From positions 59,138,987-59,202,986 of the forward strand of contig CM048557.1 in NCBI GenBank assembly GCA_026413225.1: DNA of 64,000 bases, in the 5' to 3' direction. Numbering within the stretch: the first letter of the stretch is position 1; each line of letters opens with the position of its first letter. The notes below the pieces were generated by a model that was not told the DNA's origin, did not search any database, and saw only the letters and a program-made list of their open reading frames with translations. Made by a program: the position numbers and the translations under genes. Of the stretch, positions 731-43,432 are shown one piece after another. Source of the DNA: Otis tarda (lineage: Eukaryota; Chordata; Aves; Otidiformes; Otididae).

Positions 731-6807
<6,077 letters not shown>

Positions 6808-8487: not shown

Positions 8488-8571
8488 ACTGACAGGCACG
8501 GGGGAGGGGGCGGCGCGGCGCTGGGGGGGGCACGGAGGAGCGGAGGCAGAGACGGCCGGCCACGCCGCTGA

Positions 8572-8600
8572 GGGGCGGGGTCGAGCCGCTGGCAGCCAAT
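8572..8600. promoter_or_regulatory. HSP90AA1: GC box and CCAAT box upstream of HSP90AA1
   Basis: GGGGCGGGG at 8572-8580 is an Sp1-type GC box and CCAAT at 8596-8600 is an NF-Y-type box. They lie 20 bases apart and about 160-185 bases upstream of the inferred start, a typical constitutive-support arrangement. Confidence 0.5.
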
Positions 8601-8761
8601 AGGAGCCGTCTGCGAAAGCCGTCCGTCAGAGCTCGGGTCTCGCGCAGGCGTCTTCCCTTGCCTGAACTGTCGGGGGAGGGGGGACGTGGGTCCCGCGCAT
8701 GAGCCGGCGGCTGGAAAAGCGCGCGCGCGCGCTCCCCGTTTGTCCAACCGCCGGCTCGAGT

Positions 8762-8784
8762 GGGGAGGGGGAGGGGCGAGGGGG
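8762..8784 (+). other. Putative G-quadruplex upstream of HSP90AA1
   Basis: Four G tracts of 4-5 bases are separated by loops A, A and CGA on the plus strand. Short loops and tracts of at least four predict a stable quadruplex. A (GC)7 alternating tract that could adopt Z-DNA lies at 8719-8732. Confidence 0.55.
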
Positions 8785-8883
8785 CAGGCGGGCGCATGCG
8801 TGGTGGCCGCCTGGGGATGGCGATTGGGCGCGCGCGGGGTGCTGAGGGGGAGGGGTTCGGGGGGAGATTGCACAAGTGGCGAG

Positions 8884-8891
8884 TGACGTCA
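8884..8891. promoter_or_regulatory. Palindromic CRE, TGACGTCA
   Basis: This is a perfect 8-base cAMP response element (CREB/ATF consensus) in the upstream CpG island, about 470 bases from the HSP90AA1 start site. The sequence match is exact; occupancy is inferred. Confidence 0.5.
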
Positions 8892-8912
8892 TTCGCTGCC
8901 TGGCGCCTCTCA

Positions 8913-8925
8913 GAACGTCCTAGAA
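8913..8925. promoter_or_regulatory. HSP90AA1: Distal heat shock element-like site
   Basis: Three units in 5-base phase: GAA 8913, TCC 8918 (one mismatch), GAA 8923. It is about 500 bases upstream of the inferred HSP90AA1 start. A triple with one mismatch is a moderate HSF1 site; function is inferred. Confidence 0.4.
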
Positions 8926-9299
8926 GCGGGCGGGGCCCGGCCCCCTGCCCCCGCACCCCGCCCCCTCCGTACCCCAGCCCCGCAGCCCCGCAGCCCCCAC
9001 CCCCCGCCGTGGAGAACGGGCTGGAAAAATACGGGGAGCGGGGCCCGGCAGCGGGGTGCGGGGCAGGAGCCGCCCTCTCTCCTCTCAGCTCCCCTTCGCC
9101 TCCGCTCGGCAGCCGCAGCGGCCGTGCTGTGCCCGCCCGGCCGCGGGCGGGTTACGCGCGCCGGGCGGCTCCCCGCAGGCCGGTTATGCAGGTGGCTGCG
9201 GCTCTGCTTGCCCCCTCAGGCCGGGACGGGATGGAGAGGCTGCGGGAGGGACGGGCACCGCGTTCCTGGCCTGGGTGGGTCGCGGCATAGGGGTGCTGT

Positions 9300-12200
9300 G
9301 GTAAAGCATTTCGCCTAATCAGGGAAAACAGGATCACATCTCGCACAGCAGCTGCGCCTGCAAGTTGAACGCAACCGTGCCTCTTAGTCTGTGTATTTGT
9401 TCAGGGTAGAAGGAGTCAAGGGATCAAATCCAAGCGGCTCAGAAGACCAACATAGCTCTGTAGTTACTGAAGGATTTAAGTGCTAATAGTAGACATGAGA
9501 TGGATGCCAATGCAGTTCAGTTTGTTAAGAGCCCAAAGCCTGAAACCTGCTGAGATTGTCAGCCTGGACGTGGCCTTTGCCATCTAATCTGCAGGAAATC
9601 TCAGCTGATGATCAAAGGGCACAGCTACAGGCATCTTTATACCTTAGACATCTTGCATAAAGGCTTTGATAAGTACACATCTCATTATACCCAGTAGCTC
9701 TGTGATTACAGCATTCAGCAGGGGCGTTATTTTTATATCCTGAACGACCTGATTGGCAGCAGGCAGTTAAATGCAGGTCTTCCTTGTCTCAAGAGAATGA
9801 TCTGCATCACATGTGCTCCAGAGCAGGCTTCTAAAAGTTTCTTCTTGGAGCTGATCCACTTTTGGAGATAAAAATACCACGTGAAGCTGCATGTTACAAC
9901 TGCAGATTAGTGTAAGCATGAATGTAGACAAAGTCCTTGGTCTAAAGAATAGCTATTTATTTATTTGAAGAATAAGAAGGATGTTATTTCTCTTGCAAAA
10001 ATCCATTCCAGGTGCAACTTCTTGGCATTTTCTGTTGGCTCTTAGATGTAGCCCAGACAGCTATGTAGTTCAGCATCTGACTGACTTTCAGGAATTGAAT
10101 TTTTATATGCCTAACCTGCCCTTCTGCCAGTTACGCATCCTAAATTACACTGGGTAGTGTGCCCGATGAACTAGATACTACAATACTTAGGTCTATTAAT
10201 GTATTTAACCAAACGTCCTTATGCTGAATTTAATATTCTTAGCATCAATTGTCCCACAGTTTGGCCAGTTTACTGGTCACCATACTTACCATACTTATAC
10301 CATACTTATATTAAGTGTGCATGTAAGACATTGCGTAGGACCCGTCAAGGAACTAAAATGACAGCTCGTTTCATTGCAGTTTCTGCAGTATCTGGATCAG
10401 TGTCTGCATTGGTGCAATGACTTACAGGACTCTGCCCTTCTAAGCAGTGGTGTTATAGCTCTGACCCAAGCAGTCGGCCAAAATACAGGGTCCTGCAGGT
10501 TATTTTAATTGGAAGGAAAAATTAATTGTGGTGCCAACAATAACATAGGAGGGTGTGTAGATAAGCTGCTGCTCATCTATACAGCACACGGAAGAAATCA
10601 AGGTTATTTGCTCACAGTTCTAAGGCACCAAAAAAGCTGGATCTCAGCCAACGCTCGGCCTAGAAAGTTCTGCGGTTCTGTCTGAGTCACCTTTTTGGTG
10701 CTCGCCCTGGCTCATGGTTTTCTGTACCTTCTTTGAGTCTGATTTTGTGGTGCTTCTCAATGTATTTCTTTCCCTTTCTCTCAAAGACACACCCTTCTAT
10801 AAAATAATAAGCACCAAAATCCTTTCTTGAGTATGACGTGTTCTTTTCTTTGCGTAGTGACTATGATTTCAGTGGTATGACAGCTGCTTTGGTTGTCTGC
10901 TTCTGTAAAGCAGCTTAATGGCTTTTTACCACTGTCTTAATTAAGTGTAGCAGTTATACCGAAGCATAACAATGCAACTTTCATGTTTTTCTTCCATTAA
11001 AAATAGTCCTAGTATAAAATCTATAGGACATGCCTTTTAGGCTGAAACCCTCTTACATTAAGATTGCATTAACTGAAACGTTTTCTAACATTTATTTTGG
11101 TCAAAATAACTTCTGTAGTTTAGAGAACTGCTAATCTATTACAATTTATGAAAATCTGTCCAAGCATTTTTTTCCAATAATATCCTACTAAAATTATTTG
11201 TGTGCTCTCCTTTTGAGATGTCAAAAATTTTCAGAGTGCGACTTTTATCAGAATATTCAATATGTTTTTCTGAATAAAATATTTTCCTTTTTAATCTCTA
11301 GATTAATGTGGATTCAGTCATTCAGACTTAGCGATATAGGTGATTTTAAGCATGTGAAGAGCTATGTAAGGGTTTGCATATGTCTGCAGGATCATGTGCC
11401 TTTATACTGTCTAATGTAGCAGCCATATCATTCTGGTTTTCTTTTGTGATTGTGTTGTTCAGCTTTTAAACGCAATCTTCAAAGGCAGATTGATTTCTTT
11501 TGTCAAAATTGTTTGACAAGTGCACTAGCAGAAAGTAATCTCATACCAAACCATCTAAGTTTTCCCTGCTCTGCTTAACCTAATTTCCTGTGTAAAGCAA
11601 ATGTTTTCTTCGTGACCTGTGAATAATCTATATTCTTTTTGTTCTGTTATGCAGTGAGGGCTAGTGAAGATAAGCACTTTGTCCCTGTGGTTACTCTATT
11701 TTAACTGATCCCAGTTTTGTATTGCTTCAGTTTTACGATAAAAAGACTGGTTCCAGACTTGTTTTCTGTCAGAGTTAAATTTGGGGGAAAATCTGAGCAA
11801 AATAGTTCCATTTTTTCAACCAACAGATTAGCATACTTTCATATTTCAATAAATAGTTCTATTAATGGGGGAAAGGCTGAAGCCTGGAATTTTCAAGTCC
11901 TACATTCGCACTCACTTGTTCCATCCCGTATCCCCTAGACACTCCCGACCCCTCTTCTCATCATCCCGAACCTGTCAATCCTTCATCTGCCTTCCTTTAA
12001 TGTTGCACCTGAATGAGAAGCAGTACGTACCACGTCTGGAGCACACAGATGTGCTCGGTGAAGAGCTAGCCATTGCCTCTTAGCTGTTAGGCCAGCCAAA
12101 CAGGGAGGATAAAGCTGAATTCTCACTGCCCCTTCCTTCAAAAGAGGCAACAAGAGCACATGTCTGTGCTGCCCACCTATTGATTTTTGCAGGCCTTAAT

Positions 12201-14620
12201 ATCCCTGTGATCTCTGTTCATTTGTTAACTTTGATTGAATTGGTTAAATAGGTCAAAAGTATTAGGGAGGGACTGATGGACAGCAACAACATCATTGCAA
12301 GTGCTTAATTTCCTTAGGAAACTAGACTAAAAACATTCTTCCATTTTTTAAACTACTATTGTAGCCAGTGTCTGAGGGATGGTTACATGTGATTTCATTT
12401 TTTCTGATTATATAGTATTAAAATAAATAATATGGGCAACTGCCATTTATTCAGTAAGATTTACTACTTCAAACATACCATAAATGGGAAGGCAAAACAC
12501 CCCAACAACCACTGTATTCAATTCTAATTCAAAATTTGAAGCCCAGGCAGGTGGTTGATTTGCCATTTTCTTGTCAGAATCTAAGCAACTTTTGATTTCA
12601 GAAGATTCACATTTGAATCAAATGTTGAAGAACCAGGTCTTCTTTAACCAGAAGCTGTCCCATCGTGACAAGACGTGCTAGGAAGTTGGATACATTGCTG
12701 CACTGACTGCATGGGCCTCACTCTTGCCTTTGCTGATTTCCTCAGGATTAGTCCCATACTTGTTCCCCATATACATTTGCATCGTAATCAAGTCTTTAAT
12801 TACACAATTTCATAGAACTCCTTGCTATATGAAAGTTACAAAACTAAAAAAGAACAAAGTAAAAGATGGCTGAAAGAAAGTTACTTAATGTTCAAAGCAT
12901 TGAAATAACACCCAGGAAAACTGGGTTTTATTCTTGATTCCATCAAAGGCTTCTTCTGTGTTGCTGAGTAAGACTTTTTTATTTTTATAAGCCACAAAGA
13001 AATTAAATGACATTTGCATAGAGAATTTTAACTTCAGCATTTAACTAAGTTTTGAGTGCTTGGTGTTGTAGCTTTCATGCTTTTATAACATTGCTTTAAA
13101 ATTAATTCTATTTGAGTTCTGAGACAGATTTGTCATGTTATCTTAGTGCTTCAGGGTTTACTTAACGAAAACAAAACAGCAGCAACTGAAATTACCTAAA
13201 CAGTAGATTTCAGAAGACAGACATAAGTAGAAAGATGTGGTAATATGTGTCTAGTTTTCTTTAACACATGGAATTATGGATGTAAAATCTGTGTTGTCAT
13301 AATGAAATGTAAAGCTGGCTAGGATCTCTGACTGAGCAAAGCTTCATGCTTTCTTAAAACTGTTCCTCAGGCTGTCTTGTCTCCTGCTTGTCTTACTGGA
13401 AGATGAAGTGATCGTAAGATCTTTAGGTCACAAAAAAAAAAGTGATTCATGCTAGAAATAGGATCGATAGTCACTTAGAAGGAATATTTTTGTGGTGAAA
13501 AGGTACTTAAGAGGCGCAGAACAAAATGGATCTCATCAAGTGTAGTTGTACTTCTGAACTGTTGGTGGCAGCAATAATTGTATGGACCAAGGGCAATATG
13601 TACACATCTTTTTCTTCTAAGAGTTTATGGTTCTCGAAGTATTTGTTAGGGAGTGCGATAACTGTCAGAGTCATCGCTCTCAGAAGGAATTCTGAAGGGA
13701 CTGAAACTGTTGAACAAGAATAAATTTGTTATAGCAAATGTCAACAATTCCACTACTAACAAATGTCAAGTATAATTTACGATAAAAGCTCAGCTGCATA
13801 GAAAGACTGAGAGAATGAGCATGGAAAAGGCCTGGATTCATGGAATGTTAACATGGCCCCAGAATAATTGTTTAATCTTGTCATAAATTACTTTATATGC
13901 TGTTTGTCACAAAATTAAAAGATTTGGTTAGCTTTATAACCACTACAATTTCATACTTTAAATTTGTCCCCATCTTAATATTCCCTTGTGACTGGAACAA
14001 GGGATACTGTCTTTATAGTTTTATACCTTATATAATGATTTACACTTTCTGAGAATAAATCCATAATGATGCACTTCTTAGCCGAAATTATATGTACAGA
14101 TCATATCATAGAATAATACAGATCATATAATACATAATACCTATACAAACTTAGGAACATAGGACACTTCATCTTCCAAAGAGTTACAAGTGTTTCTTTC
14201 CAGTATCTGGTTCCGCTTTTTGCTTTAAGGAGCAATGTGAGAAAGAGCCGTAAGAAGCCTTGGCCGGGGGTTTCCCATCGTAGCTTGGGGGCTGCGTTTA
14301 ACCTAGGCCCTTGGCTTTGATCCTCGCCTGAGCCATGCTGCAGCTGTGCCTGGGTTCAGCCTTCTACTTTGCTGATCCCAGCCTTGCCTTGCTGACCTCA
14401 GCTGCTTGGCTTGTCCTTGGGCCTACTTCATTGTTACAGATTAGTGTGGTGATCGCTGAGCTATTGGCTGAAACATCACTGCACCAAATCTTCTTTTCTT
14501 GTTCAGGTACCATGGGATTATGACCCTGGGCAGCAAGCTCACTGCCCCTGCCTGCCTTGTTTTCATCCTTGGCTCCCCGCTCACCCTCCCCTCTGGAGCA
14601 GCCTGCTCTTTTACACCCAG
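9300..14620. other. Intergenic stretch without recognised gene
   Basis: AT-rich, single-copy-looking sequence upstream of HSP90AA1. Open frames are all short (at most about 75 codons to 14330) and show no recognisable motif or splice-flanked homology. I see only a small tandem repeat near 10280-10308 and short mononucleotide runs. At 14200-14620 the sequence turns GC-richer just before a CR1 tail and may be an older unclassified insertion. Confidence 0.6.
10280..10308. repeat. Short tandem repeat, three copies of CCATACTTA
   Basis: Copies lie at 10280-10288, 10289-10297 and 10300-10308, the last offset by two extra bases. A minisatellite-like expansion with no evident function. Confidence 0.7.
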
Positions 14621-14624
14621 TCCA

Positions 14625-14780
14625 GTTTCCCCTTGAAAGAGGTGTCCAGGTAGAACAAGGCCAGGCTGGATGGGGCTCTGAGCAATCTGATCTAGTTGAA
14701 GATGTCCCTGCTCCTTGGAGGGGGGGTTGGACTAGATGACCTTTAAAGGTCCCTTCCAACCCAAACTATTCTATGATTCT
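14625..14780 (+). mobile_element. CR1 LINE 3' fragment
   Basis: The segment reads CAAGGCCAGGCTGGATGGGG, then the TTGGACTAGATGACC block and ATTCTATGATTCT, the CR1 3' untranslated end in plus sense. It is strongly 5'-truncated. Confidence 0.9.
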
Positions 14781-15367
14781 CCAACACCTCATATTCTGGA
14801 AAATTGCTTACAAACCTTGTTATAAGTCTTTTTTTCCTTCTGATAGTCAAGGAAAACTTTGAAGAATTTTATTATTACACTTTCTCTTGTCACCTTTGTA
14901 ATTCTGCTCTGCAGCCAGATCTGCGAAGAAATATTTGAAGTCAGCTATTCAGAATTCAATACACACTGGAGTATACTATGAGTCTGCTGCATGCCTAGAA
15001 GTTTCAAATTCTATCATGAAGTTATCTTTCAACAAAGGTTTTAGAAGTCATAGGAATTTAAAAAATCTGCAAGTTCAAGTTCCACATTTTTCAAGAAGGG
15101 AGATTATTAGCATTTAAAATAGATGTCCATGAAGTTGATTCTTTCTAGTATTTCAAACAATGGATACAGTCTTTACTTGAGCACTCTATACTTGTAAGAG
15201 AAGGCAAGGAATTAGTTTAAATCTGTCCATATGTTCTCTGGGTAGACTTCTTAGTACATGGTTGATAGATTTTTTTTTTTTCTGTCTTTCAGATAATACT
15301 TTCATTTTATTAGACAGATAAGGAAATGTTAAGGGAAAATACAAGGTACTAAAATTACAGAGTCCTT

Positions 15368-15529
15368 TCAGATAATCACACATTAAGGCTTCACAGCTAT
15401 CCATGATGAACACTCTGCTCAGCCTCAGTTTAACGTTATTTTCCTGCTGTGTCAGACAGATCATAAAATTCATTTATTGTGAAAAACCAGGAGAGCTCTG
15501 AATCCCAGCTTTCTCTCCACAAAAGAATG
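15368..15529 (-). pseudogene. Exon 6-like piece of the HSP90AA relic
   Basis: A pyrimidine tract and CAG acceptor precede HSFVERKLGFRALL, matching [14 protein letters not shown] of HSP90AA1. After an indel that shifts frame, VKLRLSRVFIMDSCEALM follows, matching [18 protein letters not shown]. The donor is destroyed (AA for GT). Confidence 0.88.
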
Positions 15530-16757
15530 CTGAAAAAAAAGAAGAGTAGCAGTAAGATAATTCTGATTAAAGCTGAGTACGAGCAGGTACTTTGAGAAAT
15601 TTTGTCAAGAGCTGTGTAAGTACTTGATTAATCATGCACAAATCTATCTGCAGGCTACAGTAACCAGGCACAGTGAATTAGAGGGAAAGTCAGTTTTCAT
15701 CTCTTTCAAAGAGATGCTTCCTGCCATACTGAGGCAAATCTCCTGAAGTAACTTGGCTGTTTATATGGAAATCCTGCTTTGCACTCAGCTGAGCTGAGGA
15801 TATTCTTAGCCAGTTAATATGCATGTCAGTGTAATGCAGCTGTTCTACAGCGCTTTACATTGTGAAAGTAGGACAGACTAGAGTTACTAGAAGTCACCAG
15901 GTTATTTCTTAGTCAGAGTGGTGCTGGCTAATACTTGCCAGGAGATATTTCTGCCTTTTTTTCTCTCACCATTGACAAAACAAAATGAGAGGAAAACCCC
16001 CCAGAATGGCTCTTTCAGCTGGGTGGGAGTCACATTGACTCCTGTGATTGACAAAACTCTTTCAGATACTGACAGCCTAGGATATCTGCATCTCTACTCC
16101 ATTTGAATTGGATATGTCTGGAACAGTGAAAGTGCCTTTATTTTGTCAAATTCAAATCACTTTTAAAATGTCTAGTGTTAAAATAAAAGCAGTAAGGTCA
16201 CTCTAACCAGAAAAGTTCTTTATTTAAAATAAAACTATAAAAAACTGATGACAGAATGCCTTTTCTGTGCCTTGTTCTTGCTGTGCTTCACAGTAGATCT
16301 ACAAAGCTAAGTTGCACGAAGGGGCAGTAAAGGATTAGGATACTAAAAGAAGGGATTTTTCAGCTTTTCTTCTTAGTACAGCTACTCTTTCTAATGACTT
16401 ATCTAACGTTGTATTTCCTCAGACCATTTGTTCAAAATGAAATATCTCTCTTACTTGTAGTTCTGTAGAACTGTTTCAAGTTTGATTCATCTGAGAGAAA
16501 TACAGTTCTGAATTTATACCAAATATAACCATGATGACTTGGCTTCCTTCTCCTTAGTTGCCTGAGACAGAAAATTAGTAAGCCATTCTTTTCTCTAGAA
16601 ACCTCTGCATTCACATTCCTATTATATTCTTTAATTTGCATGTTATTTCCATCTTGATTGACTTCCCTGTATATGACTGCTTTTTTAAGAATAAAGGTCA
16701 TTGTAGGTCATACAAGAAGTATTTCCAACTCTGCCTTGTAGTTTTGTAGAATTCATT

Positions 16758-16822
16758 CACAGAATCATAAAATCATTTAGGTTGGAAAAGACTTTTAAGG
16801 TCATTGAGTCCAACCATTAAAA
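16758..16822 (-). mobile_element. CR1 LINE 3' end fragment inside the HSP90AA relic
   Basis: The plus strand reads AGAATCATAAAATCATTTAG, then GTTGGAAAAGACTTTTAAGG and GAGTCCAACC, the reverse complement of a CR1 3' end. It sits between the exon 6-like and exon 4-like pieces, where exon 5 would be expected. Confidence 0.88.
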
Positions 16823-17467
16823 ATTAATGAAATACCGGTGATACACCTGGCATTCGAAGTACCTTTCTAAATTGCTTTCCACTCGTCTATTCTCAGTTTT
16901 GGAACTAGAGCCATAATACCTAGCGCTTAAAAGCCAGAATTACTAATCAGTCAGTGCCAACCAGACCTCTTTCAGAAGCATATTTAAATATGTCAGGAGA
17001 TTTCTTTGGCCCCAAATGTACAACTTTAGGATATATCAGTACAAAATACATATTCAGAGCTTACTGCTTCACCTGCTTAATTAGTATCTTCATCTATAAA
17101 TACGTATTTTCATTGTCAGGTAGTCCAGATTTTAACAAAAGCATGAACCGTATCTTACTATATTCGCTAACATACACATTAGCTTAAAACATCCTCTGGG
17201 CTGGTGTATGAGAAGCTCGGCATCTAGATTTGACATGGAATAACTCTATCCTGCATAGATAGCACTCTTAAAGAGATCATTAGGAAAATAAACTGAGAAA
17301 TTATCATATATCGTAATGTCGAGTCCTTCTTGTAAAGGTTAATGCTAACAGTACAAAGAGAGCTTAGTTAATGTTGTGCAGTAGCATCTGGGAATGATGC
17401 AAGGACATTAGGTATGCAACTAGTGTTTCAAAGCATGTACTATTAGCATCTCAAACAAGGCACTTGC

Positions 17468-17601
17468 AAAGAGTGTAATTGGATAGCTGATGAATTGAGA
17501 ATGCTTCTTCACAATTGCTTTGATTTGCCTTTCTTCCAAATATTCTCTTTGATCTTTCTTCAGATTTAGGATAGTCTTTGTTCTACAGCCATGGGGTTCC
17601 C
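17468..17601 (-). pseudogene. Exon 4-like piece of the HSP90AA relic
   Basis: The best preserved piece. It starts GEPHGCRTK and ends [12 protein letters not shown], aligned end to end with HSP90AA1 exon 4 without a gap. The acceptor AG is kept; the donor position reads GCAAGT where HSP90AA1 has GTAAGT. It codes part of the N-terminal ATPase domain. Confidence 0.9.
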
Positions 17602-18539
17602 CTTGAATGAAACTGAGAGTTTTAGTGGCAGCACAAATGGCCAAATGGCAAGCTTTTTCTAAAATGAAGGGGTAACATCAATGTAAAAAGAAATTCTTAA
17701 TCATCATAGGCTACCTGATAATGATAAACTGGTGCTTTATAGCTATTTTGTGCTCCAACAAATGCAACAACTACAGCAATTATACCATTTCAATGTATAT
17801 TTCCCCCAACTTTCAAAACCCTGATGAAGCACAGCGATACTTAGCAACATACAAACTGCAAGAGGGAGTTTATAATGCAGAAGTTCATGAAGTTTGAACT
17901 TTTTCTTTAATTATTATACATACTAAAAATGAAATGCAGCAGTGGTGCTGTATTGTGTAACAGCGAACTCCATTCATGAACATTTCTCATTATAAACGAC
18001 AGCAAGAGAGCCTTGAATTGAAGGTGACATATCTACTGCCTGTCTTTTTGCTTTGTGAGCACTGTCACATTTGCAATCAGGTAGGCAGAGAAGAAGCTGA
18101 CCCCAATCTGACCAATTCTAGAGGCTCCATCATGAGCAATATTTCTATTAAGGCTCTGCTGCTGGACCTCACAGTAGTAATGGGGTCAGCTTTGGTCATC
18201 CTGTGCCTTAATCCATGGTGGTCAGAGTGCATTTGTGCTTGTCGGGTCATTCATTTCCAGGATCCAGCTTGTTTGGATCAGTCACAGACTCAAGTCTGAT
18301 TTTCTCCGAGACCACAACAGGAGGCTTGAGCACACTTAAGAATTTAGGCAGTGTTTTACTGGCTGAGTCACAGCTAGATTACTTGCAACCAAAGAATTGC
18401 AAACTGGCTCCCTCAGAAAGGTTTTATTGCTGGAATAGAAAGTGTTGATGAGCAACTATTTCAGCCTCAAAGGCAAGAGTCTCCTCCTCTTCATCCATGG
18501 GCTGATCTTTAGTTTGCACAGATTCACTATTAATAAGGC

Positions 18540-19060
18540 TAAATAGCGCTGAAACCTTACTGCATGTATACTTATACACACATGCACTAGACTGTGGCAT
18601 ATGGCTTTTGAAACTGAGTGAAAAAATACAAATAATTTTGGATATATGTCTTGAGAGCGAAGGACAAAGAAATATAATTATTGTTTCAGATGTATCATTA
18701 ATACTCCAATGTATATTTTGGATTGTCACTTCTCTCTGATTTCTAATTTCTTGCTTAAGTCGAAGATACTGTAGGATGAATAATTGTTCAATCAAGAGGA
18801 ATTTAGTAGGCTTTTTAATGTAGTCATGTTAGATTGTATTACAAAGCAAGAAAAGTCATCACAAGATTTGAAATATTACCATGAATTAATTACCCATTTA
18901 GATTCTGGTACATCCCAGAGTTGAAATTTTACAGTTATGACAAAATAACAAAGACTGGAGATTCTCACTCTCCTTTAACTGAAACACTACCTGTATAGGA
19001 ACACTCTGAGGTAATTATTCAATTTTAAGATCAAGCTTGAAATTACTCAGGGAGAATGAG
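18540..19060. other. Intergenic, no recognised feature
   Basis: AT-rich sequence 5' of the HSP90AA relic. No first exon, TATA box or heat shock element comparable to HSP90AA1 was found here, so the duplicated promoter is not recognisable. Confidence 0.5.
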
Positions 19061-19062
19061 GG

Positions 19063-19332
19063 ATATTGGCTCAGTTGGTATAATGATGAGACTGCAAGGA
19101 AACACATTTTTCTGAAGGGACATGTTCTAGTGTAAAGTTCCTCCTGTTGAGGAGTTGTTGTTGTAACCAAGTCTGAAGCCACCTAAAGATGTAGACTTCC
19201 TATTTAAGATATGCTACTATCTAATGTTCCTATTTAAGTTATGCATAAACAGCCCCCCTTATTCACCTGTTTTGAATAAAGACCATGAGAGCCTTGTGTC
19301 TCGCTACTAGCTGGTTCTCTCCTGTCACAGCT
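19063..19332 (+). repeat. Unclassified repeat-like stretch with LTR-like tail
   Basis: It opens with TGGCTCAGTTGG, a perfect polymerase III A-box-like match, with a weak B-box-like TGTTCTAGTG at about 19126. Further on, AATAAA at about 19275 is followed by a short T/C-rich region ending CTGTCACA, similar in layout to the end of a solo LTR. I found no clear target duplication, primer binding site or coding remnant, so class and borders are uncertain. Confidence 0.3.
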
Positions 19333-19554
19333 ATAGGAAGGAAAGAAGACAAGAAACAGAATAAATTATAATTTAGACTGACTAGAATGATTTAGAAGAT
19401 TATGACAAGATTATGTTTGAATTTTCCAAAGGGAAGTGATGGAGAGAAACATACTGTAGCCACATTTCAGCTTACCTTAGCAGAGCAACTAATCTTCATC
19501 AGCTAAGTCTGGCAGTAAAAGAATCACTGTCATCACTCATCTTTCTGCAGAATT

Positions 19555-19682
19555 TACTCTATGTAGGTAACCTTCAAACGACACTTTAAAAAAAAAAATC
19601 AGCCCATCACTTGGTTTTGACATGCAGCAGGAGAAGGAGAGTAGAGAGAAACTGAACAAGACTCCTTAGGCATGGAGCAAGG
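19555..19682 (+). repeat. Imperfect direct repeat, copy A
   Basis: This copy aligns along about 125 bases with 21590-21716, including GAGAGAAACTGAACAAG and an AGGTAAYCTTCAAACSACAC segment (Y and S mark the differing bases). It is not CR1 and I do not recognise the family. Confidence 0.75.
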
Positions 19683-19865
19683 CAAGAGAGGTGCTGAGAG
19701 TGTATTATTCTGACATACCACATATTGAAGGCTGAGTTTGCTAACCGACGTACTCGAGGCAAGCAGTCACCTCACTTCTTGTTTAGAAACTATGATCCTG
19801 ATCCTGCACTTCCAAAGAGCTTTTATAATCATTTCCTCCTACAGAAGGTAAGTAAAATGCTGAGT

Positions 19866-19894
19866 AGTCAACACTACTCAAAATAGTGTTGACT
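19866..19894. repeat. Perfect inverted repeat, 11-base arms, 7-base loop
   Basis: Arms AGTCAACACTA (19866-19876) and TAGTGTTGACT (19884-19894) flank CTCAAAA. It lies between repeat copy A and the CR1 at 19941. Confidence 0.8.
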
Positions 19895-19940
19895 TACATG
19901 GATACTGCACAAATATAAATGATAATGTTAAGAGTAAACT

Positions 19941-20090
19941 TAGAGAATCACAGAGTGTTTGAGGTTGGAAAGAACCTCTGGAGGTCATCTCATCCAACCC
20001 CGCTGCTCAAGCAGGGCCACCTAGAGCAGGTTGCCCATGACTATGTCCACTAACAGCTGCTCTGAAACAAACTCATTGATGGGTGACATC
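19941..20090 (-). mobile_element. CR1 LINE 3' fragment
   Basis: It starts AGAATCACAGAGTGTTTGAG, then GTTGGAAAGAACCTCTGG and CATCCAACCCCGCTGCTCAA with AGCAGGTTGCCC, the reverse complement of a CR1 3' region. Confidence 0.9.
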
Positions 20091-21589
20091 GCTTTGCAAT
20101 TACACAAAGTGGACCGCAGCCCTCCCTCAGAAAGAATCTTAAATCTAAACTTTCTACCGGAGCAGCTGATTCCACCCCGTCACACATGGCCGCAGCTCAA
20201 ATAGCACTGAAGAACAGAAATAGAAGGTGTCTCTATTTGTGAGTGGGAGGTGGCTAAAGTGCATTAACGGACTGTTCATGTTTCTGAGTGCAAATGGAGA
20301 TAGCAGCAGCCTAACTTCTCAGATTAATCCATTAAAGCAAAAGACAGGCTTAGAAACGATGTTAATAATATACTAATGAGGATTCCTCCTTGGTGCTTGC
20401 GCTATTGCTACAGCGGGCAAAGGGAGGAATATGGGTCTCTCTGTGTGCCCTCCTGCCCATCTAAGAGTTGCCACATAAGAGTTCAGCATGAAGTCTGTCC
20501 AGTTTGCAGTGCTGTTAGAATTCACCAGATGGGGCTAATACAGCAAATATAAATATTCTCTATAGACGTCATGCTGAACAAATATATAGAGATAGGGAGA
20601 GAGAGCAATATATATTTGTATGTGTGGCACACCTTCTAAAAGGTGGTTTGTTTCTTTTCTTTTAAGCTAATCCCCTCAATGAGTCCATTATTTATAATAG
20701 ATACTTTGTTTCAGTAATGTTGTATGAATTATATTTTTAACTATTTATCCATTCACCACCACCCCACAAACCAATATCTGTCTCTGGAAATTTGTAGGTT
20801 AGATCAGGCTTGCTTGTTTTAGTGGTTTTTTTTTTAATCTCTAAACAACTATTAAACCACATATATAAAAATTGAAGGGTATATGTTGTCTTCAGTTCCT
20901 AGATGTTATGCTTTTTTTCTATGTGTAAATAAAAATTAAAAAAAAGTTGTAAAAATTAATTTAAGCTTATAAATGTGTATGGCTTTCCCTTTTCATCTGG
21001 TACACTGATACATTGACTGATCCTGTCTCCTAAGTCCATCTCCCAGATTTGGTTTCATGTAGAGCCTCTGAACATATTTAGACATCACTGTAAAGTTTTA
21101 GTTAGCATCTACCTAACATCCTCATTTGTGTCAAATCACTGAATTGGGAAGTCAGTATTTGAAAATTGAAAGTAATTGCTTGTGAAAGATGTCAGACTGA
21201 CGCTCTCTATGTTCTAACATTTCTTTAATAAGCAATTCTGTCATTTTTACTATAAAAGGGGATGAAAATACAGTAAGATTTAGTATGTATCTATCCTATA
21301 TTTATTTTAGCACATTATACCTACTTATGAAAATAAAGATGACAGTGAACAGTCATCAGATGGCATTTAACTCAACTGAGTGAACAGCTATTGGGAAATG
21401 ACATAAATCATGTTATACCTAGCACCTGGTCATAGAAAGAGGGAGGCAAAAGACAGGGAATCTCACACGAATGTGCATATTTGATTAAATGATTACTGAA
21501 AAGTATACATTACATAAGAACATAACATTGTATGAGATGGATAAGGATGATAGTTTCAGGTAAACCAGAGAAGCAGGGACCCAAGAGCC

Positions 21590-21716
21590 TACTCTACAAA
21601 GGTAATCTTCAAACCACACTTTTCTTTAGTAATCCCATGACCTGCTTTTTATATAGAGTAAGAGAAAGAGAGCAGAGAGAAACTGAACAAGTCTAATTAG
21701 GCTTGGAGGAAGTCAG
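21590..21716 (+). repeat. Imperfect direct repeat, copy B
   Basis: Partner of 19555-19682, 2.0 kb away in the same orientation. Similarity begins at TACTCTA and ends near TTGGAGGAAG. Flanks do not match, which favours two insertions of one element or a short old duplication. Confidence 0.75.
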
Positions 21717-21719
21717 ACT

Positions 21720-24700
21720 TCCAGTTTGACAGGCACTTAGACTGCTGAAAGCCTGAGTGATAATAATTTTTTATGATGAATTAATTTTTTTGTGTGTGAT
21801 TAAATTGTAAGGTACCTATGATAATGACATAAAAATACATGCATTATAACAATAAATCTCCTTTCTCCTCAGCCAACCTCTCTTTGTTCTGTAGATGACA
21901 AAATCCCTATCAAAAAAAGAGAAACCCACTTTGATGGAAAAATTGTATTGGGAAGTTTTGTCTAAACAGTTACACAACTTAGATAATGCCCTTTATACAT
22001 GCCCTTGTTGATTTGCAAACCAAAGTAATGAGCATGACCATAATAACGACCATAGTGAAGCCAGCACATAATTCAGATAAATAAGCGCTCCTTTCTTTAA
22101 ATGTCCAATGATTCAGCTAGTGCTGAATGAACAGCCAGTGCTATGCAGTATCCAAAGCTCATGTGCTTTAGTGAGCTCATATAAATACTCATAAAAGGTC
22201 CCATTAGAAGATCACATGTCTAAAACTTTAATGCTTCATCTAAAACAATTTGTAGGCAGCCATGCAGGCCATGGAACTGAAATGACACTTATGACACTGA
22301 TGAAGAACCTCCTCCTATGACTGAACAGAAACCAAATAGCCATTTCTCTTCTGAAGCTCTCTGCAACGTGTTTTGAGATATTGCCTCATATGAGAAAGGT
22401 GATAAGGGAATGTAGAATGTGCTAACAAGTTTTCAGTCCCTCTTTGAGAAATACACCAAAGCAACAAAGATCTCACCATCAGTTAGGTAGATGACCTGGG
22501 GGAAACTGAGGAACCTAGGACAAATTTAAGACATCCATGCACATACGTCTCTTCCGTGCAAAATGTTCAGAGGCTCTTGATCCCGGTCACCTTTTAGAAC
22601 TTAGTCACTTCTTTATTTTAGGCTGGTAATGCTTCCATTTCCTTGGCTTTTAAAGTCCATTCTTTCCAAAGACACCTTTCTCAGCTTTCCTTATGTCCTG
22701 TTCTGCTTGGGGAGTCTTAAATCACACAATGGCAGCCACATTTCTTGCATGGATGACTGCTAACTAACTGTTGCTCACACCAACTACAGATTGCTTGGCT
22801 GACCTGCAACACTTGTCAATAACTATGTATTGTCATAACACGATAACATGAGCTTCCCAATGAAAACCAGCTGAACAAAATAGCAGATTCTGATGGAAGA
22901 GAAAATAAATTGGAAGCATTTTTTGTACCGAACCTTTTGTTGCTTGAGTTACAAACACACAAGAGTCTATTCAAGATTGCAGTTTAGGAGTGTTCTTGGC
23001 ATTCTCAGTGGCACTACATTCTCACACTGCAGCACTGATAAGCATCACTGTCTAGAAATTCCAGTTTTGTAAGACACTCAGTTGTTGCTGCTGGCCAACA
23101 GTCAGACCTTACTTATTCAGAGGTTTGTCATTCCTCAGCTAGATTGCAGCAATACCATATGTATGGATAAGATGTCTTCCGTAGTTAGAGAGTTTTGAGA
23201 AGTACATAATGCTGTAGCACGTTAGAAACATAAGCTATTTGTGGGCCCATCAAACCAATTTCTGTGTCTTTCCATAAATTTAAATTAAATTCATTATCTC
23301 AGTCTTATATTCAGAGAACATAATTTCCAGGACAGCTACAGCTTGAAGACAAGAACTGTTGTTGACAAGAACAGCACTCTTCACTCTGGAGGTAAGGTAG
23401 TCTTCAGGAGACAACTTACAGAGAGCTGATTGCAAACAGCAAAATGAAATCTTCCAAAGACACAACAGAGTTCACTGTCATCCACTCCCAACTGCAAAGC
23501 AGATTTCTTTTAGTTTGCCTTCTTTAATCAAATGTTTAAAAAATATCCATTTATTTTTAAGTAATAAAACCCCCAAACTACGAAAACAAAATGTTTCACA
23601 TGCTCTTGCTCTTGAGCAGGGATGAGACTACAAACAACATGCAATGTATTCTAGCGTAGCAGAAACTTACTTGATAACAGCCTTTCACTTTGTAATACAT
23701 ATCATAATGCATCACCTCATGTATTTAGTGTTAAATGTATGTGCTGGTTAAGAAGAAAATCTTAATGCAAATAAGGAGCTATTAAACTATGCCATAAACA
23801 ATATTTTCTCATGATGAAAGCAAATTAGACATACCTTAATGTACATGTAAGTCATTGGAAATATATTTCCAACACTGTAATTCTTTTTTTCCTCCCGTAT
23901 CAAATGGAACTTACATGCCATTCTCCTCACCAGCATCAATCTTTTGGCTTGCTCAGATGTGTTGCTTATCTATCTCTGTATGCCTCTGTCTGTTAGCAAT
24001 TCCCATACATTCATAATTTTTTACAGTTTGACACCTTGCAGAGCTTTTGACTCCTTTGACTCTTAAGCCAGTCACACACTAAATGCCTGTATTGATTTTG
24101 GCATCAGAAGTCCAAGCAAAACTTGACAGACCTACTATATTTGCCAGACACTGCAGGAATGGTTTCCCAGTTCCTGCCTCACAATCTGCAGGCAGCGTAG
24201 GCTAGAATAGATACTGTTTGCATGATGGAATATGGGAGTGGTCACCATCCTTTTTTTTTTTTTTTTGGCTCAGAAGAGCTGGTAAAAGTATAACTAATAT
24301 CTGTTGTTGCACTTTTCGGGAAGTAGCAGATGGCATTCAGATTCAAGCATAGAAAAGTTTTGTTGATAACTGTACTTGTATTGCATAAGTTTTAAGGCTG
24401 CAGTTTCCTCATGGCTAGCAAAAGCACTATTAATACTACATCCTGAAAAGCTGCAGGACCAATTTGGGCCCTGAATAAATCAATCTCAAAGGACCATGCT
24501 ATTTTATTAATGTTAGTGAATTTTGCTCGTCTGTTTTCCAATTTGCCAAAACATGTGCAAGAAGTAAAGGCACAATGGCACAACCACAGCAGTGGTTCTG
24601 ACCAACTTCTATTTCTTGTGCAGTGCACACAAAACAACACATCTAGGGGTGTCCTCATGGGATCATTTCAGAACTATTAGCTTTGGTTAGCTTAAAACAG

Positions 24701-26750
24701 AAGAATTTACAAGTGGTACAGAGAATTTTTTCATAAGGCTTAAGTCTGTAATCTTTTTTTTTTTTCCCATTCTATAACCAAGTATTTGGTGAGTATTGTT
24801 GATGGGGCTGTACAATAGTGTTCTTATGACTTGCAGCTGTGTTTTTGAAATGAATATTTGTCTTGGATTCTCTCTGGAATCTCTCAGCAGCTTTTATTGA
24901 TGTTTCTTGGTAAATGTTAAACACTACATCAATTCTTTGACTTTCTGCACCATCATGTACTGCTGATAACCAGGTACTTGTTAACTTTGTTTATCCTTTG
25001 GATCATACTCATACCATCACTGACAGATGGCCTGCTGTGATTTCTGTATGATTTGCATTCCACACAGTCCCTCTACCAAAGTTTCCTGCTTTGTTACTCA
25101 AAGTGATCCATCCAATGTCGTCAGTGTGTAATGAATAAGACATACTGAGTATGCCTGCTTGGAGCAACACTTTTTTTTTTTTTTTGTTAAATCCTTGTCT
25201 GTTTTGAATATTATTATTATTTAGAGATCCTCGCCTTTCCTACTCATCTTTTGGTGACTGAAAACACCCTAACCTTCTCTCTGAAAGTCCATTCATGAAA
25301 TTTCAGCATGAAAGAGCCACTCTGAAGACAACAGTTCTTAAAATAATTGCAGGTCTGCTCAACTACTTTTTGTGCTTTTAGGAGGTCATCAATACCATCT
25401 GGCAGGGCTGGTTGATAAGCTGACAAGATCTATTGGTCATTATTGATTGGCTTTATCTTAAGAATTTCAGCCTAGCTTTTTGTTTGTTATAAGCAAAATT
25501 AGTATAAAACCAAGTTTGATTTTCTGTACTTGTTCAGATATTCACTCAGATACATACTCTATTCTGCATGATTTAACCTGGAGAGCTTTAGCTGTTTCAT
25601 GTCTGTCAGCTACATTGTGCTAATATTTTGATGGTCAGCAGCAAGATAGTATTCAGCTGCAAACCACATCTCTTTGAACTAAACTGATTTGAAACTAAAT
25701 CCCTTTAACCCCCTGGAGTCTGAGTGGACTTCCGTGGTTGAACTGATCTAGTGGAAAGAAAGGCATGTCCTGCTTCCCTCTGGCTCTGCTGTGCGCTCCT
25801 GTCCCTTACCTTACATAGTCAGTGTTTTTCATTTAACCTTATTCATTTCACATTTGCAGGGAGTTTAATTCTCTACCCATTTATCTTTCAGAAATGGCTC
25901 TTATGAGATCAGATGAGCACTGCTGCTGGCAAAGAAAGCAGCAGCTAGTTGCAGTCAAGAAAGAAGAGAGGACAACCCCTTTGGTAGCAGCCACATTAGA
26001 ACAACACAGCTACACCATGAAACTACACCTTTTTATTGTTAATACAAGATGATCTAACTCTGTGCTGCTTATCTTCCTCTAGTTGCACATTCCCAACTCC
26101 TTCCTTACTTTGCTCTAGCAATTCTTTGACGAGTTGGATCAGCCTAGTTGCTGATCAAGATTGCTTACCTAAGAACCTGTCATTTCTTTGTGAGTGTTAG
26201 TTTTCAAGTAGATTGGACTCACCCTTTGGTTGCATAATTGCTAGAATTGATGTAAGGGAGGTAATGGAAATACATATCCAAACACAGAGGAGATATCAAG
26301 GCCCTTTTTTTACAGTTGGGAGATCAGTCTTAGATTAGTTTGAGTCAGTCATAAGGTTGTAATTAGACAAAATCTTTAAGCTGAAACTGCTGCCAAAAGA
26401 AACAGTCCTGCCTCCCTGCCCAGTGAAAACAATCCCTTCTAACCCTATGCTGCTTCTATCTGACATTGATCTGGTTCACCATGCAACACAGCTGTTTTTA
26501 TAGCTGCATGATGATCAGGACAATGAAGTGAGTTATCTGACAACCAGTTTTTCAGGTTAACACTTCAGGTCAACTCCCCAGCCTGGCTCTGTGTGTACCT
26601 GGCAGTTTAGAGGCTGGTGCGGAGCTGGAGGGATGGCGGTACAGTCTCCTTCAGGGGGAGCGAGGTGGGTTTGACACGGCGTGTGAGAAGTACAGCTGCA
26701 CACTTGCATTTGCTGTCTCTTAGCTGACTTACCCATGGATTCTCCCAGCA
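21720..26750. other. Intergenic stretch without recognised gene
   Basis: AT-rich sequence between the repeat pair and the WDR20 CpG island. It holds poly-T runs (about 24252-24267 and 25171-25185) and only short open frames, the longest about 88 codons. I see no transposon protein, RNA gene or conserved exon. Confidence 0.55.
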
Positions 26751-27283
26751 GGGCTTACCCACCCCATCTGACCAGGCTCTCAGGAACCGGCAGGTGCGCC
26801 AGCAGCAACCTGTGCACAAAGTTGGCCACGGCCAAACCGAACGAGCCTGTCAGCTCTCACCTGGGAGCCATCACCCCTACAAACCGGCGCTGCCCCAGCG
26901 CCCAGGCACCGAGGCGACGGATTCTCTGTGGGCCCGAAAAGCCCGTCCTCACACCCACCAGCCGGAGCCCGACTCCACTCACTCCCCATCCCTCACAGCA
27001 CTCATACCCCAGCGCCGACCCTTACACCCCACCGCCATCTTGAGCGACCCCCCCGGCGGGCGGCCTGCAGCCCCTCGCTCCGCCCACCAGCCCCCAGGCC
27101 CCGCCCCTTCCCGCGAGGGCGCACCCAAGGGCAGCCAGCCCGGCGCCTGCGCAGACGCGCAGTAAACAGGCTCCGCCGCTCCTCCCCCTTACGTCCTTTG
27201 CGTGGCCGCCTCCGCGCAGGGCCGCGGGAGCGCCGGTGGCGGCGGCGGTTGCGCAGTGGCATACATCCGGGCACTGGGGCAGG

Positions 27284-27343
27284 ATGAATGCTCCTTTCCA
27301 AGATGGCGGCGGAGGGAGGAGGGAAGGAGATGAACGAGATTAA
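27284..27343 (+). CDS. Upstream ORF overlapping the WDR20 start (19 codons)
   Basis: ATG at 27284 with A at -3 opens a frame offset from WDR20 and closes at TAA 27341-27343, 38 bases past the WDR20 ATG. If included in the mRNA it would divert some initiating ribosomes and reduce WDR20 translation. The peptide itself has no recognisable motif. Whether the start site lies upstream of it is inferred from the CpG island. Confidence 0.45.
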   Translation: MNAPFQDGGGGRREGDERD

Positions 27344-27551
27344 GACCCAGTTCACCACCCGGGAGGGGCTGTACAAGCTGCTGAGCCACTCAGAGTACAG
27401 CCGGCCTAACCGGGTGCCCTTCAACTCGCAGGGCTCCAACCCGGTCCGCGTTTCCTTCGTCAACGTCAACGACCAGAGCGGCAACGGGGACCGGCTCTGC
27501 TTCAATGTGGGCCGGGAGCTCTACTTCTACATCTACAAGGGGGTCCGCAAG
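27303..27551 (+). CDS. WDR20: WDR20, WD repeat-containing protein 20, coding exon 1
   Basis: Codes residues 1-83, MAAEGGGKEMNEIK to YFYIYKGVRK, closely matching the vertebrate WDR20 N-terminus. WDR20 is a WD40 cofactor that binds and stimulates the deubiquitinases USP12 and USP46, together with WDR48. The ATG at 27303 has A at -3 and G at +4. An in-frame ATG at 27288 would add MLLSK but has a poor context, so I chose 27303. The donor is AAG/GTACTG at 27552. The frame stays open about 80 codons into the intron, which is probably chance in GC-rich sequence. A short upstream ORF overlaps this start (27284-27343). Confidence 0.95.
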
Positions 27552-32792: not shown

Positions 32793-33115
32793 AAAGGGGG
32801 CCTACAGGAAAGACAGAGAGAAACTCTTCAGTACGGCCTATTGCAATAGGATGAGGGGTAATGGTTTTAAAATATAGGGAGGTAGATCTAGGTTAGATAT
32901 TAGGAAAAGAATTTTTACAATGAGGGTAGTAGAATGCTGAAACAGTTTTCCCAGAGAGGTGGTGGATGCTCCATCTCTGAAAATGTTCAAGGCCAGTCTG
33001 GATGAGGCTCTGAGCAACCTGATCTAGTTGGGGATGTCCCTGCTCCTTGCAGGGGGCTTGGACTAGATGGCCTTTAAAGATCCCTTCCAACCCAAACTAA
33101 TCTATGATTCTGTAA
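32793..33115 (+). mobile_element. CR1 LINE 3' fragment (ORF2 tail and 3' UTR)
   Basis: Contains the GGGGGCCTACAGGAAAGA and AGAGAGGTGGTGGATGCTCC segments of the ORF2 end, then the TTGGACTAGATGGCC block and CTATGATTCT. Plus sense, same direction as WDR20, 5'-truncated and decayed. Confidence 0.93.
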
Positions 33116-35209
33116 TAGCATGTGTGAGCTAAAAAATGTGGAGAGTTGTAAAGATCTTTGAAGATACACTTTTTCTGAAGTGGTGTGCAGTATACCTACA
33201 TCTTTGTAACCAGTTCTTAAACTTGCAGCAACAAGAATTCCACAGCCTCCCTGAAGAACTTGTTTTGGTGCTCAGTTTTCTCTGACCCCCAACATCTAAC
33301 TAAACTTCTTGTTGAAGTAAAAAAACCAACCAACCAAACAAAAAAAACCACCCCCCCCAAAAAAAAAACCAAAACAAAAAAACACCCCACAAAAACAGGC
33401 TGAATGCTGTTGTTTACTGTGGATATGGAGAACATTTGAGTATTGCCTTTGACTTCTACATGTTTGAAAACTTGTTAGTTTGTCCTTTCATTTTTCCTAA
33501 GGTAAATCTAGTTCTTTTAACCTTTCTTTTCACGTCTTGAGTTTCAAAATGTTTGATTACCCTCCTCTTTATTGGCTTCTATATAGCTTGCATTTGTGGT
33601 ACGTAAACTAGATGTAGTACTTCCACCGTGACTTCAGTGTGGCATAACATAGAAATACTGCCTGCTGTGCCTGTCTTCTAATATTCTCGCTAACATATTG
33701 AATACTGTTGACATTTTTGAATCCTATTCCTAGTGTTGACCCATGTGGATTGTTTCTTAAATTGCTGCTTTCTCTCAATTTTTACGCATGCTTTGATTTT
33801 TATTGTTTCTGTTTATAAAGGCCATGTAGCATTTTCATTGAATTTTATTCTATTATGTTTATTAGAGAGAGTTTTTATTTCCAATTCTGTGCTGCATACT
33901 GCAAAAAGCTTTCCAATCTTGATGTCATTCACAAGTTTGACATGTAGTCACATCCATTAACAAAAATATCTCATAGAACCACGCGTTATATTTGCTGCTG
34001 ACCTTTTTCACTAGTTATCTTTTCAGAAGACAGATTTGTTCAGTGCTTGCTTTTGGCAAGTTTACCTTGTCAGCTTTTTCCCCCCTTTGTTTAGATGCTT
34101 GCAGTCTGTTTTGTTTCGGTGGTTTTGATACCCAAGAAAGGTTTACTGCTATGACAGTCAAATTGTATTACAAAGTGTTGTGCATTTAAATATTTATTTG
34201 TACCAGAATCAAACATCACTCTTATTGTCAAAGGGATGACAGACGAAGGTGGCTGATGGAAGTACCATAGTAAAGACAGCAGAACTTTTCTCAAAGGTAT
34301 CTGGTGCCATTCTGCTACTCAGATAGTTTTCGCGTTCTGTGCTGGAGGAATTTACATAGTCCACATTTTTGAGGTGTGGTGTCCCTCTTCAAAAAGATGT
34401 TGTAGATTTATTTTTTTCAAGAAATTAGATAATTTATTGCTGAGTTTTCTTCTTCTCTGTATTGTAGATAATAGTTGTTATGTTGGGACTAGGTTCACGA
34501 GTCCTGTGGAGGTATTGCAGCTATAGATCAGTAGTACTTTACCTGTTGATCTGTGCTTGTGAAGGTATTTGAAAGTCTCTTGGCAATTTATTTAAAGTGT
34601 TTAATGGATGGATATACTTACCAGTTTGAGTTTTGTGATGTAGATAGATGTTTTCTTTCTTAATTCTAGCAGGGCTGTACTAAGAACTGCCAAGACATGT
34701 TACAGAATATTTCTGTAGAGTTTTCTGAAGGGTGGGTTTTTTTGGTAACTCCTTTCTTCCAGTGGCACTTATGAAGGAAATAGTGAAGATCCAATGTAGA
34801 TCACAGGAGTACAGGTAGATTTAAGTGTTTAACTCCATTGTGAGGCATGTATAGAACAACTAGGACAGGCTCGAGTAAGAGGAAAAACTAAGAAGCTGCT
34901 GTAAAGACTAAAAAGCTACTTTAAAATGACACAGTTAAATGTTTCTTGCTGTGAAAGAGAATGAAGTATCTGCACTTGATGGAGTTTGCAAGATGATTAT
35001 TATCTGGGGGCTACTTCTGAGTTGTAGATAGTGGCATTAGTCCATAGAACTTTTACTTCTCCTACTCTGCTTCAAGCCTGTATCACAACTGTTACACTGC
35101 AATAGTTTACTGAAGTCGATCTTCTGAAATATTGCTCTCCAAGGTAATAGTTCACTTATCTATGGCTGTTTGGCTGGCACATTTGAGAGTGAATAACCAA
35201 ATTGATATG

Positions 35210-36052
35210 CAGTATGCCTGACCTTGACAGGCCGGAGAGGTGGGCCCGTGCCAACCTCATGAAGTTCAACCAGGCCAAGTGCAAGGTCCTGCACCTGGGT
35301 CATGGCAATCCCAGGCACAAATACAGGCTGGGCGGGGAATGGATCGAGAGCAGCCCTGAGGAGAAGGACTTGGGAGTGCTGGTGGATGAGAAGCTCAACA
35401 TGAGCCGGCAATGCACTCTTGCGGCCCAGAAGGCCAACCGCATCCTGGGCTGCATCAAGAGAAGCGTGGCCAGCAGGTCGAGGGAGGTGATTCTGCCCCT
35501 CTACTCTGCCCTGGTGAGACCCCGCCTGGAGTACTGTGTCCAGTTCTGGAGCCCCCAACATAAGAAGGACATGGACCAGTTGGAGAAGGTCCAGAGGAGG
35601 GCCATGAAGGGGGCTGGAGAGAGAGGGGGCTGGAGCACCTCTCCTATGAGGACAGGCAGAGAGAGTTGGGGCTGTTCAGCCTGGAGAAGAGGAGGCTCCG
35701 GGGGAGACCTGATAGCAGTCTTCCAGTACCTCAAGGGGGCCTACAGGAAAGATGGGGAGAGGCTGTTCAGTAGGGCCTGTTGTGATAAGACAAGGGGTAA
35801 TGGTTTTAAGATAGAGGGAGGTAGATTTAGATTGGATATTAGGAAAAATTTTTTTACAATGCGAGTTGTAGAGCACTGGCACAGGTTGCCCAGAGAGGTG
35901 GTGGATGCCCCATCCATGGGGAAACATTAAAGGCCCGGTTGGAGGGGGCTCTGAGCAACCTGATCTGGTTGGAAATGTCCCTGCTCCTTGCAGGGGGGTT
36001 GGACTAGATGACCTTTGAAGGTCCCTTCCAACCCTAACCATTCTATGATTCT
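35210..36052 (+). mobile_element. CR1 LINE, 5'-truncated, with reverse transcriptase C-terminal fragment
   Basis: An open frame to 35930 encodes the C-terminal part of CR1 ORF2: [20 protein letters not shown], then [34 protein letters not shown] and [11 protein letters not shown]. Between about 35610 and 35700 the protein leaves and later regains the CR1 frame, so two compensating indels are likely, yet no stop was created. The 3' end has the TTGGACTAGATGACC block and TTCTATGATTCT. It lacks the front of the reverse transcriptase and the endonuclease, so it is immobile. Confidence 0.95.
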
Positions 36053-43339: not shown

Positions 43340-43432
43340 TTATGTAGTTGAAGATGTCCCTGCTCCTTGCAGGGGGATTGGACTAGATAACCTTTAAAGG
43401 TCCCGTCCAAAGCAAACTATTCTTTGATTCTA
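43340..43432 (+). mobile_element. CR1 LINE extreme 3' fragment
   Basis: Starts near GTAGTTGAAGATGTCCCTGC and runs through TTGGACTAGATAACC to TTCTTTGATTCT. Only the final 90 or so bases are present, in plus sense. Confidence 0.9.

Follow-up and report, generated by a model that had tools for sequence, protein, structure and literature searches.

The window analysed here is a stretch of 64,000 nucleotides of Otis tarda (C6:59138987-59202986, in a genome of 1.198 Gb). On the minus strand it carries a working HSP90AA1 gene with an open coding sequence, the first 470 residues of which have human HSP90-alpha as their best PDB match (E 1e-295), and on the plus strand the start of WDR20. Between the two, on the same strand as HSP90AA1 and thus head to tail with it, sits the relic of a second HSP90AA gene (Table 1). 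HSP90AA1 has heat-shock-element-like sites at 8488 (14/15) and, within intron 1, at 7621 (13/15).

Table 1. Features of the HSP90AA1-WDR20 region, in window positions
Feature	Position	Strand	Remarks
Working HSP90AA1	731..6711	-	coding exons 2-11, CDS 2187 nt, 728 aa, open
HSP90AA1 exon 2	6711-6553	-	
HSP90AA1 exon 3	6459-6093	-	
HSP90AA1 exon 4	5589-5456	-	
HSP90AA1 exon 5	4972-4664	-	309 nt
HSP90AA1 exon 6	3986-3821	-	
HSP90AA1 exon 7	3406-3216	-	
HSP90AA1 exon 8	3079-2932	-	
HSP90AA1 exon 9	1984-1716	-	
HSP90AA1 exon 10	1366-1033	-	
HSP90AA1 exon 11	840-731	-	
Interspersed repeat	14700..14785	.	limits by eye; abuts relic exon 7, at the expected exon 8 site
Relic exon 7	14787..14976	-	match 14964-14791, blastn E 5.8e-4, tblastn 5e-6
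Relic exon 6	15368..15530	-	blastn 15521-15370, E 9e-15
Stretch expected to hold exon 5	15531..17467	-	no match
Relic exon 4	17468..17601	-	blastn 17599-17468, E 2e-27, 78.8% identity, indel-free
Relic exon 3	17988..18311	-	blastn 18307-17988, E 2e-29
Relic exon 2	18394..18530	-	blastn 18525-18394, E 4e-22
WDR20 start	27303..27536	+	query 27291-27536, residues 5-82 match WDR20

A blastn comparison of the full window with the ten coding exons of HSP90AA1, together with more sensitive comparisons, revealed homologous counterparts of exons 2, 3, 4, 6 and 7, which follow one another in the order of HSP90AA1, on one strand and with intron-sized gaps between them. In Smith-Waterman alignments set against 30 dinucleotide shuffles of positions 8,700-27,200, the scores were 71 for exon 2 (best shuffle 21.5), 105.5 for exon 3 (21), 76 for exon 4 (24.5) and 50.5 for exon 6 (22), with a marginal 25.5 against 22.5 for exon 7. 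This last exon is the poorest match among the five, and its blastn value (5.8e-4) is close to those of weak matches elsewhere in the window that were taken as chance (exon 11 at 55608, 0.002; exons 9 and 11 at 60727 and 35450, 0.006); global alignment puts it 6.7 standard deviations above shuffles. With relic exon ends extrapolated from the alignments, the gaps compare with those of the working gene as follows: about 75 bases vs 93 for intron 2, about 386 vs 503 for intron 3, about 1,937 vs 1,469 between exons 4 and 6, where the relic is without exon 5, and about 391 vs 414 for intron 6. An earlier note on this DNA had listed pieces of exons 2, 3, 4 and 6, in order and orientation and separated by intron-sized gaps. 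Both blastn and the shuffles confirmed that list, the gaps of about 75 to 1,937 bases bore it out, and the similarity extends well outside exon 4, being significant for exons 2, 3 and 6 and supported for exon 7, which lies beyond the interval then delimited and had been overlooked.

The gene is dead. Exon 2 has lost its start codon and has deletions of 5 and 9 bases; the local alignments are interrupted by gaps, numbering two for exon 2, 13 for exon 3, three for exon 6 and five for exon 7; and of the 280 ungapped codons three are in-frame stops, exon 7 holding one of them and exon 3 the other two. The best preserved piece is exon 4, which keeps its full 134 nt, open and without a gap, along with the AG of its acceptor. 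The acceptor of exon 6, a poly-T followed by CAG, is also intact, and that of exon 3 is lost, so that the survival of acceptor sites claimed previously holds clearly for exons 4 and 6 only, whereas the claims of an open 134-nt exon 4 and of death by stops, indels and a lost ATG stand. No donor is left at exon 3 or exon 6, and at exons 2 and 4 the GTAAGT of the donor has become GCAAGT. Both recognisable donors (about 18386 and 17467) thus carry the same change; GC donors can splice, and these sites are therefore either lost or merely altered. The relic falls short of a working HSP90, which has an intact frame with start codon and C-terminal MEEVD, and it combines introns at the parental positions with disabling changes, as an unprocessed pseudogene does, rather than being devoid of introns like a processed one.

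No trace of exons 5, 8, 9, 10 or 11 emerged: their Smith-Waterman scores never rose above the best shuffle of 8,700-27,200, sensitive tblastn gave no match in 8600-27200 at E up to 1, and blastn of the whole window added no match to the relic beyond the weak ones taken as chance. A search for further relic pieces in the 20 kb past the 3' end of HSP90AA1 returned one 13-residue match (E 0.53), taken as chance. The interspersed repeat beside relic exon 7 ends in 33 bases (14747-14779) that recur as a repeat end in five window copies, all on the plus strand (14747-14779, 33078-33110, 36019-36051, 43398-43430 and 56170-56202), and both the repeat and this five-copy end are presumably CR1-like. An open frame of 242 residues at 35202-35930 resembles, by eye, what we take to be a piece of a CR1-type reverse transcriptase, and positions 3478-3600, in intron 6 of HSP90AA1, likewise resemble a CR1-like repeat by eye, outside the five repeat-end matches. 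On the 5' side, there was no sign of a relic promoter in 18,500-21,499, where GC is only 0.32-0.43 in 1-kb windows and the flank above exon 2 is not GC-rich; the best heat-shock-element-like site in 18,532-21,500 scored 10/15, vs 14/15 at 8488, in a scan run without a random control; and the relic 5' flank resembled intron 1 and the promoter of HSP90AA1 no better than chance (164 of 200 shuffles as good in each case).

The relic is of the alpha type. At the 17 diagnostic codons, defined as those where the local HSP90AA1 equals human alpha and human beta differs, it has nine alpha residues, one beta residue and seven that are neither. Its exon 3 runs through undivided, as in the alpha gene with its 10 coding exons, whereas exon 3 of HSP90AB1 in the same genome is split by an intron; salmon similarly has ten exons in its HSP90AA1 genes and eleven in HSP90AB1, according to the passages on gene structure in PMC10604766. 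The relic also adjoins WDR20, as expected of the alpha locus, and relic exon 4 matches 119 PDB sequences, of which the 60 listed are all HSP90-alpha. No sequence from a frog, the coelacanth or another sauropsid is named among the PDB matches listed. HSP90AB1 of this genome (C3, L004) is like the relic in being a cytosolic HSP90, with corresponding exons 2-7, and differs from it in the split exon 3 and the beta-type residues. Origin from HSP90AB1 is ruled out by the diagnostic residues and the exon structure.

The relic is the unprocessed pseudogene of a second HSP90AA gene, in our assessment probably one with a long working life. An HSP90AA gene was duplicated along with its introns, head to tail beside HSP90AA1, and the second copy most likely yielded transcripts and a functional cytosolic HSP90 protein over a substantial period. 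It then died: its frame was shifted and broken by stops, the start codon and splice sites were lost, and exon 5 and everything from exon 8 onward disappeared. The relic has no protein function today. The proposal of the earlier note that an ancestor carried two head-to-tail HSP90AA genes is supported by the exon matches, the lesions, the alpha residues and the exon structure. The working phase is less direct, being drawn from models, and the strongest competing account denies it, holding that the relic is a lineage-specific tandem duplicate of HSP90AA1, sauropsid or avian, without a working life, having been dead or almost dead at birth. We regard this as unlikely, on the following grounds.

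Because third positions compared with HSP90AB1 are near saturation, codon-position counts were replaced by a 64-codon likelihood model with HSP90AB1 as the outgroup, in which the relic branch consists of a working phase, t1, and a subsequent dead phase, t2. For the five exons (280 codons), the fit gave t1 = 0.225 and t2 = 0.272 neutral substitutions per site, with bootstrap intervals of 0.08-0.43 and 0.23-0.33, and was better than death at birth (t1 = 0) by 2dlnL = 8.28. In a parametric bootstrap under death at birth, conducted on the full five-exon set, 0 of 60 replicates reached this difference (largest 5.58), and for assumed mutational GC between 0.34 and 0.50 it stayed at 6.75 to 9.94. Much of it depends on the poorly aligned exon 7: without that exon (226 codons), 2dlnL was only 2.50, in keeping with death at birth; with indel edges dropped as well (161 codons), it was 3.53, one branch being at its bound; and for exons 2, 4 and 6 alone (129 codons), it was 5.38. 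Under the model, death at birth is rejected by the five-exon likelihood, and weakly so once exon 7 is left out. The simpler ratio of non-degenerate to fourfold divergence over the five exons, 0.53 (0.36-0.80), is compatible with a copy that never worked, and relic-branch changes at codon positions 1 to 3 (61/264, 50/282 and 52/144) give a hint of a working phase. Also in line with a dead-born local duplicate, at the six codons where the local HSP90AA1 differs from human alpha the relic agrees with the local gene at three (5, 84 and 175) and with human at none; codon 84 is His in the relic and in local HSP90AA1 and Gln in both human paralogues.

Introns provide a second line of evidence against death at birth. 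With a repeat-like piece of HSP90AA1 intron 6 excluded from the comparison, the similarity of introns 2, 3 and 6 between relic and HSP90AA1 corresponded to z scores of -0.27, 2.26 and 1.03 (sum 3.0), whereas each of the five exons scored between 6.7 and 25.1 on the same scale. A copy dead from birth would have a divergence of twice the fitted dead branch, that is, 0.54-0.63, and we simulated intron decay under two indel settings. Similarity as low as observed arose in 0 and 0 of 100 runs at K 0.55 and in 0 and 5 at K 0.63, so that the introns are too diverged for death at birth in three of these four settings and in 95 of the 100 runs of the fourth. At K 0.45 the counts were likewise 0 and 0 of 100, and at K 0.8 they rose to 5 and 49 and the exclusion was gone; all these figures rest on assumed indel rates. 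Other intron tests, local and global, agree, with a trace of similarity in intron 3 in the global one (4 of 200 shuffles as good). From the likelihood together with the nearly unalignable introns, it follows that the copy probably had a considerable working life before it died.

The good preservation of exon 4 could mean, alternatively, that this exon was retained for a present use, for instance as part of a chimeric or non-coding transcript, as the other exons fell into decay, which we judge very improbable. Exon 4 is free of indels, and 34 of its 44 residues match HSP90AA1, compared with 126 of 236 in the other relic pieces (Fisher p = 0.004, with exon 4 chosen post hoc from among the five). 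However, it has changes at residues common to human alpha and beta, its donor begins with GC instead of GT, and the preservation could equally well be due to chance or to gene conversion of this patch at a late stage.

Genome-wide searches at E up to 0.001, a threshold at which copies decayed like the relic exons other than exon 4 could be missed, yielded three places for relic exon 4 (the relic itself, HSP90AA1 and HSP90AB1) and 28 matches for the whole HSP90AA1 protein: 10 in HSP90AA1, one in the relic (exon 4 only), 11 on C3 (HSP90AB1), five on C1 and one on C15. The C1 and C15 matches are of low identity, and we take them to be HSP90B1 and TRAP1. At this threshold there are no copies of HSP90AA1 at unrelated loci with which the relic could be grouped, and a pattern search of the genome contigs for relatives of relic exon 4 produced 122 matching stretches, none of which was confirmed. 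HSP90 retrocopies are common in mammals, but a processed, retrotransposed copy of HSP90AA1 or HSP90AB1 is scarcely credible here and is refuted by the retained introns, given the gaps at HSP90AA1 intron positions, the surviving acceptors of exons 4 and 6, the place of the relic next to its parent gene in the same direction and the composition of the 28 matches.

How old the duplication might be is a separate matter. Fourfold divergence (JC) between the relic and HSP90AA1 is 0.40-0.48, about one third of the 1.30-1.40 between HSP90AA1 and HSP90AB1, the latter being near saturation. Such a low value would argue against a very old duplicate, unless gene conversion has homogenised the exons or synonymous sites are constrained. 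The fitted branches are not clock-like, about 0.12 for HSP90AA1 vs 0.50 for the relic, and since the HSP90AA1 branch is so much shorter, an age based on synonymous sites may be understated. Judged by sequence comparison, the fourfold divergence, the simple ratio and the local-type codons would fit a duplicate that arose comparatively late, among sauropsids, as well as an older copy that underwent gene conversion. Neutral sites in birds change at about 2e-9 per site per year, and at that rate the t2 interval would, as a rough inference, place the death of the gene some 115-165 million years ago. The question of dating raised in the earlier note is only narrowed, to a copy that seems to have worked for long.

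Although ordinary in kind, as an unprocessed pseudogene, the relic is historically informative by its position. No earlier report of it was found among the literature matches listed, in a search that lay mostly outside subscription journals. In the passages of PMC10604766 used here, two HSP90AA1 copies, ascribed to tandem duplication, are described for the African clawed frog, the coelacanth and the Amazon molly, the results naming frog and molly and the discussion adding the coelacanth; the neighbours given for the locus are WDR20, MOK, PPP2R5C and DIO3, and the genomes covered include chicken, turkey, softshell turtle and anole, for which those passages name no second copy. According to excerpts from other reports, each HSP90 gene is single-copy in tetrapods (PMC8646100), the pair in teleosts goes back to the genome duplication of that group (PMC8945262), and zebrafish hsp90aa1.1 serves in skeletal muscle as a chaperone for myosin (PMC4668643). 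The relic bears on the dispute over origin between PMC8646100 and PMC8945262, as far as the excerpts convey it, without settling it.

An ancestor of Otis tarda probably had an HSP90-alpha gene pair like those persisting in frogs and fishes. A more tentative suggestion, which we hold less likely than not, is that coelacanth, frog and teleosts have in their second HSP90AA1 copy the orthologue of this amniote relic. If it were true, the pair would derive from the bony-vertebrate ancestor and would have lasted into the bird line, where its loss would have ended any special duty of the second copy. A dead and probably once-working copy at this place suggests that the pair was lost in the bird line, rather than never present there. 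With it, both how old the pair is and the disappearance of an HSP90-alpha that may have been specialised become directly testable in crocodilians, turtles, lizards and birds. Among known systems, the closest likeness is to the tandem HSP90AA1 genes that zebrafish and spotted sea bass keep at a conserved locus (hsp90aa1.1 and hsp90aa1.2, in the portions of PMC8646100 cited) and to the second copy at the HSP90AA1 locus of frog, coelacanth, Amazon molly and salmonids, which has WDR20, PPP2R5C, DIO3 or MOK as neighbours in the cited passages of PMC10604766. In the pairs described there, both members are annotated genes, whereas in Otis tarda one has died and is without half its exons.
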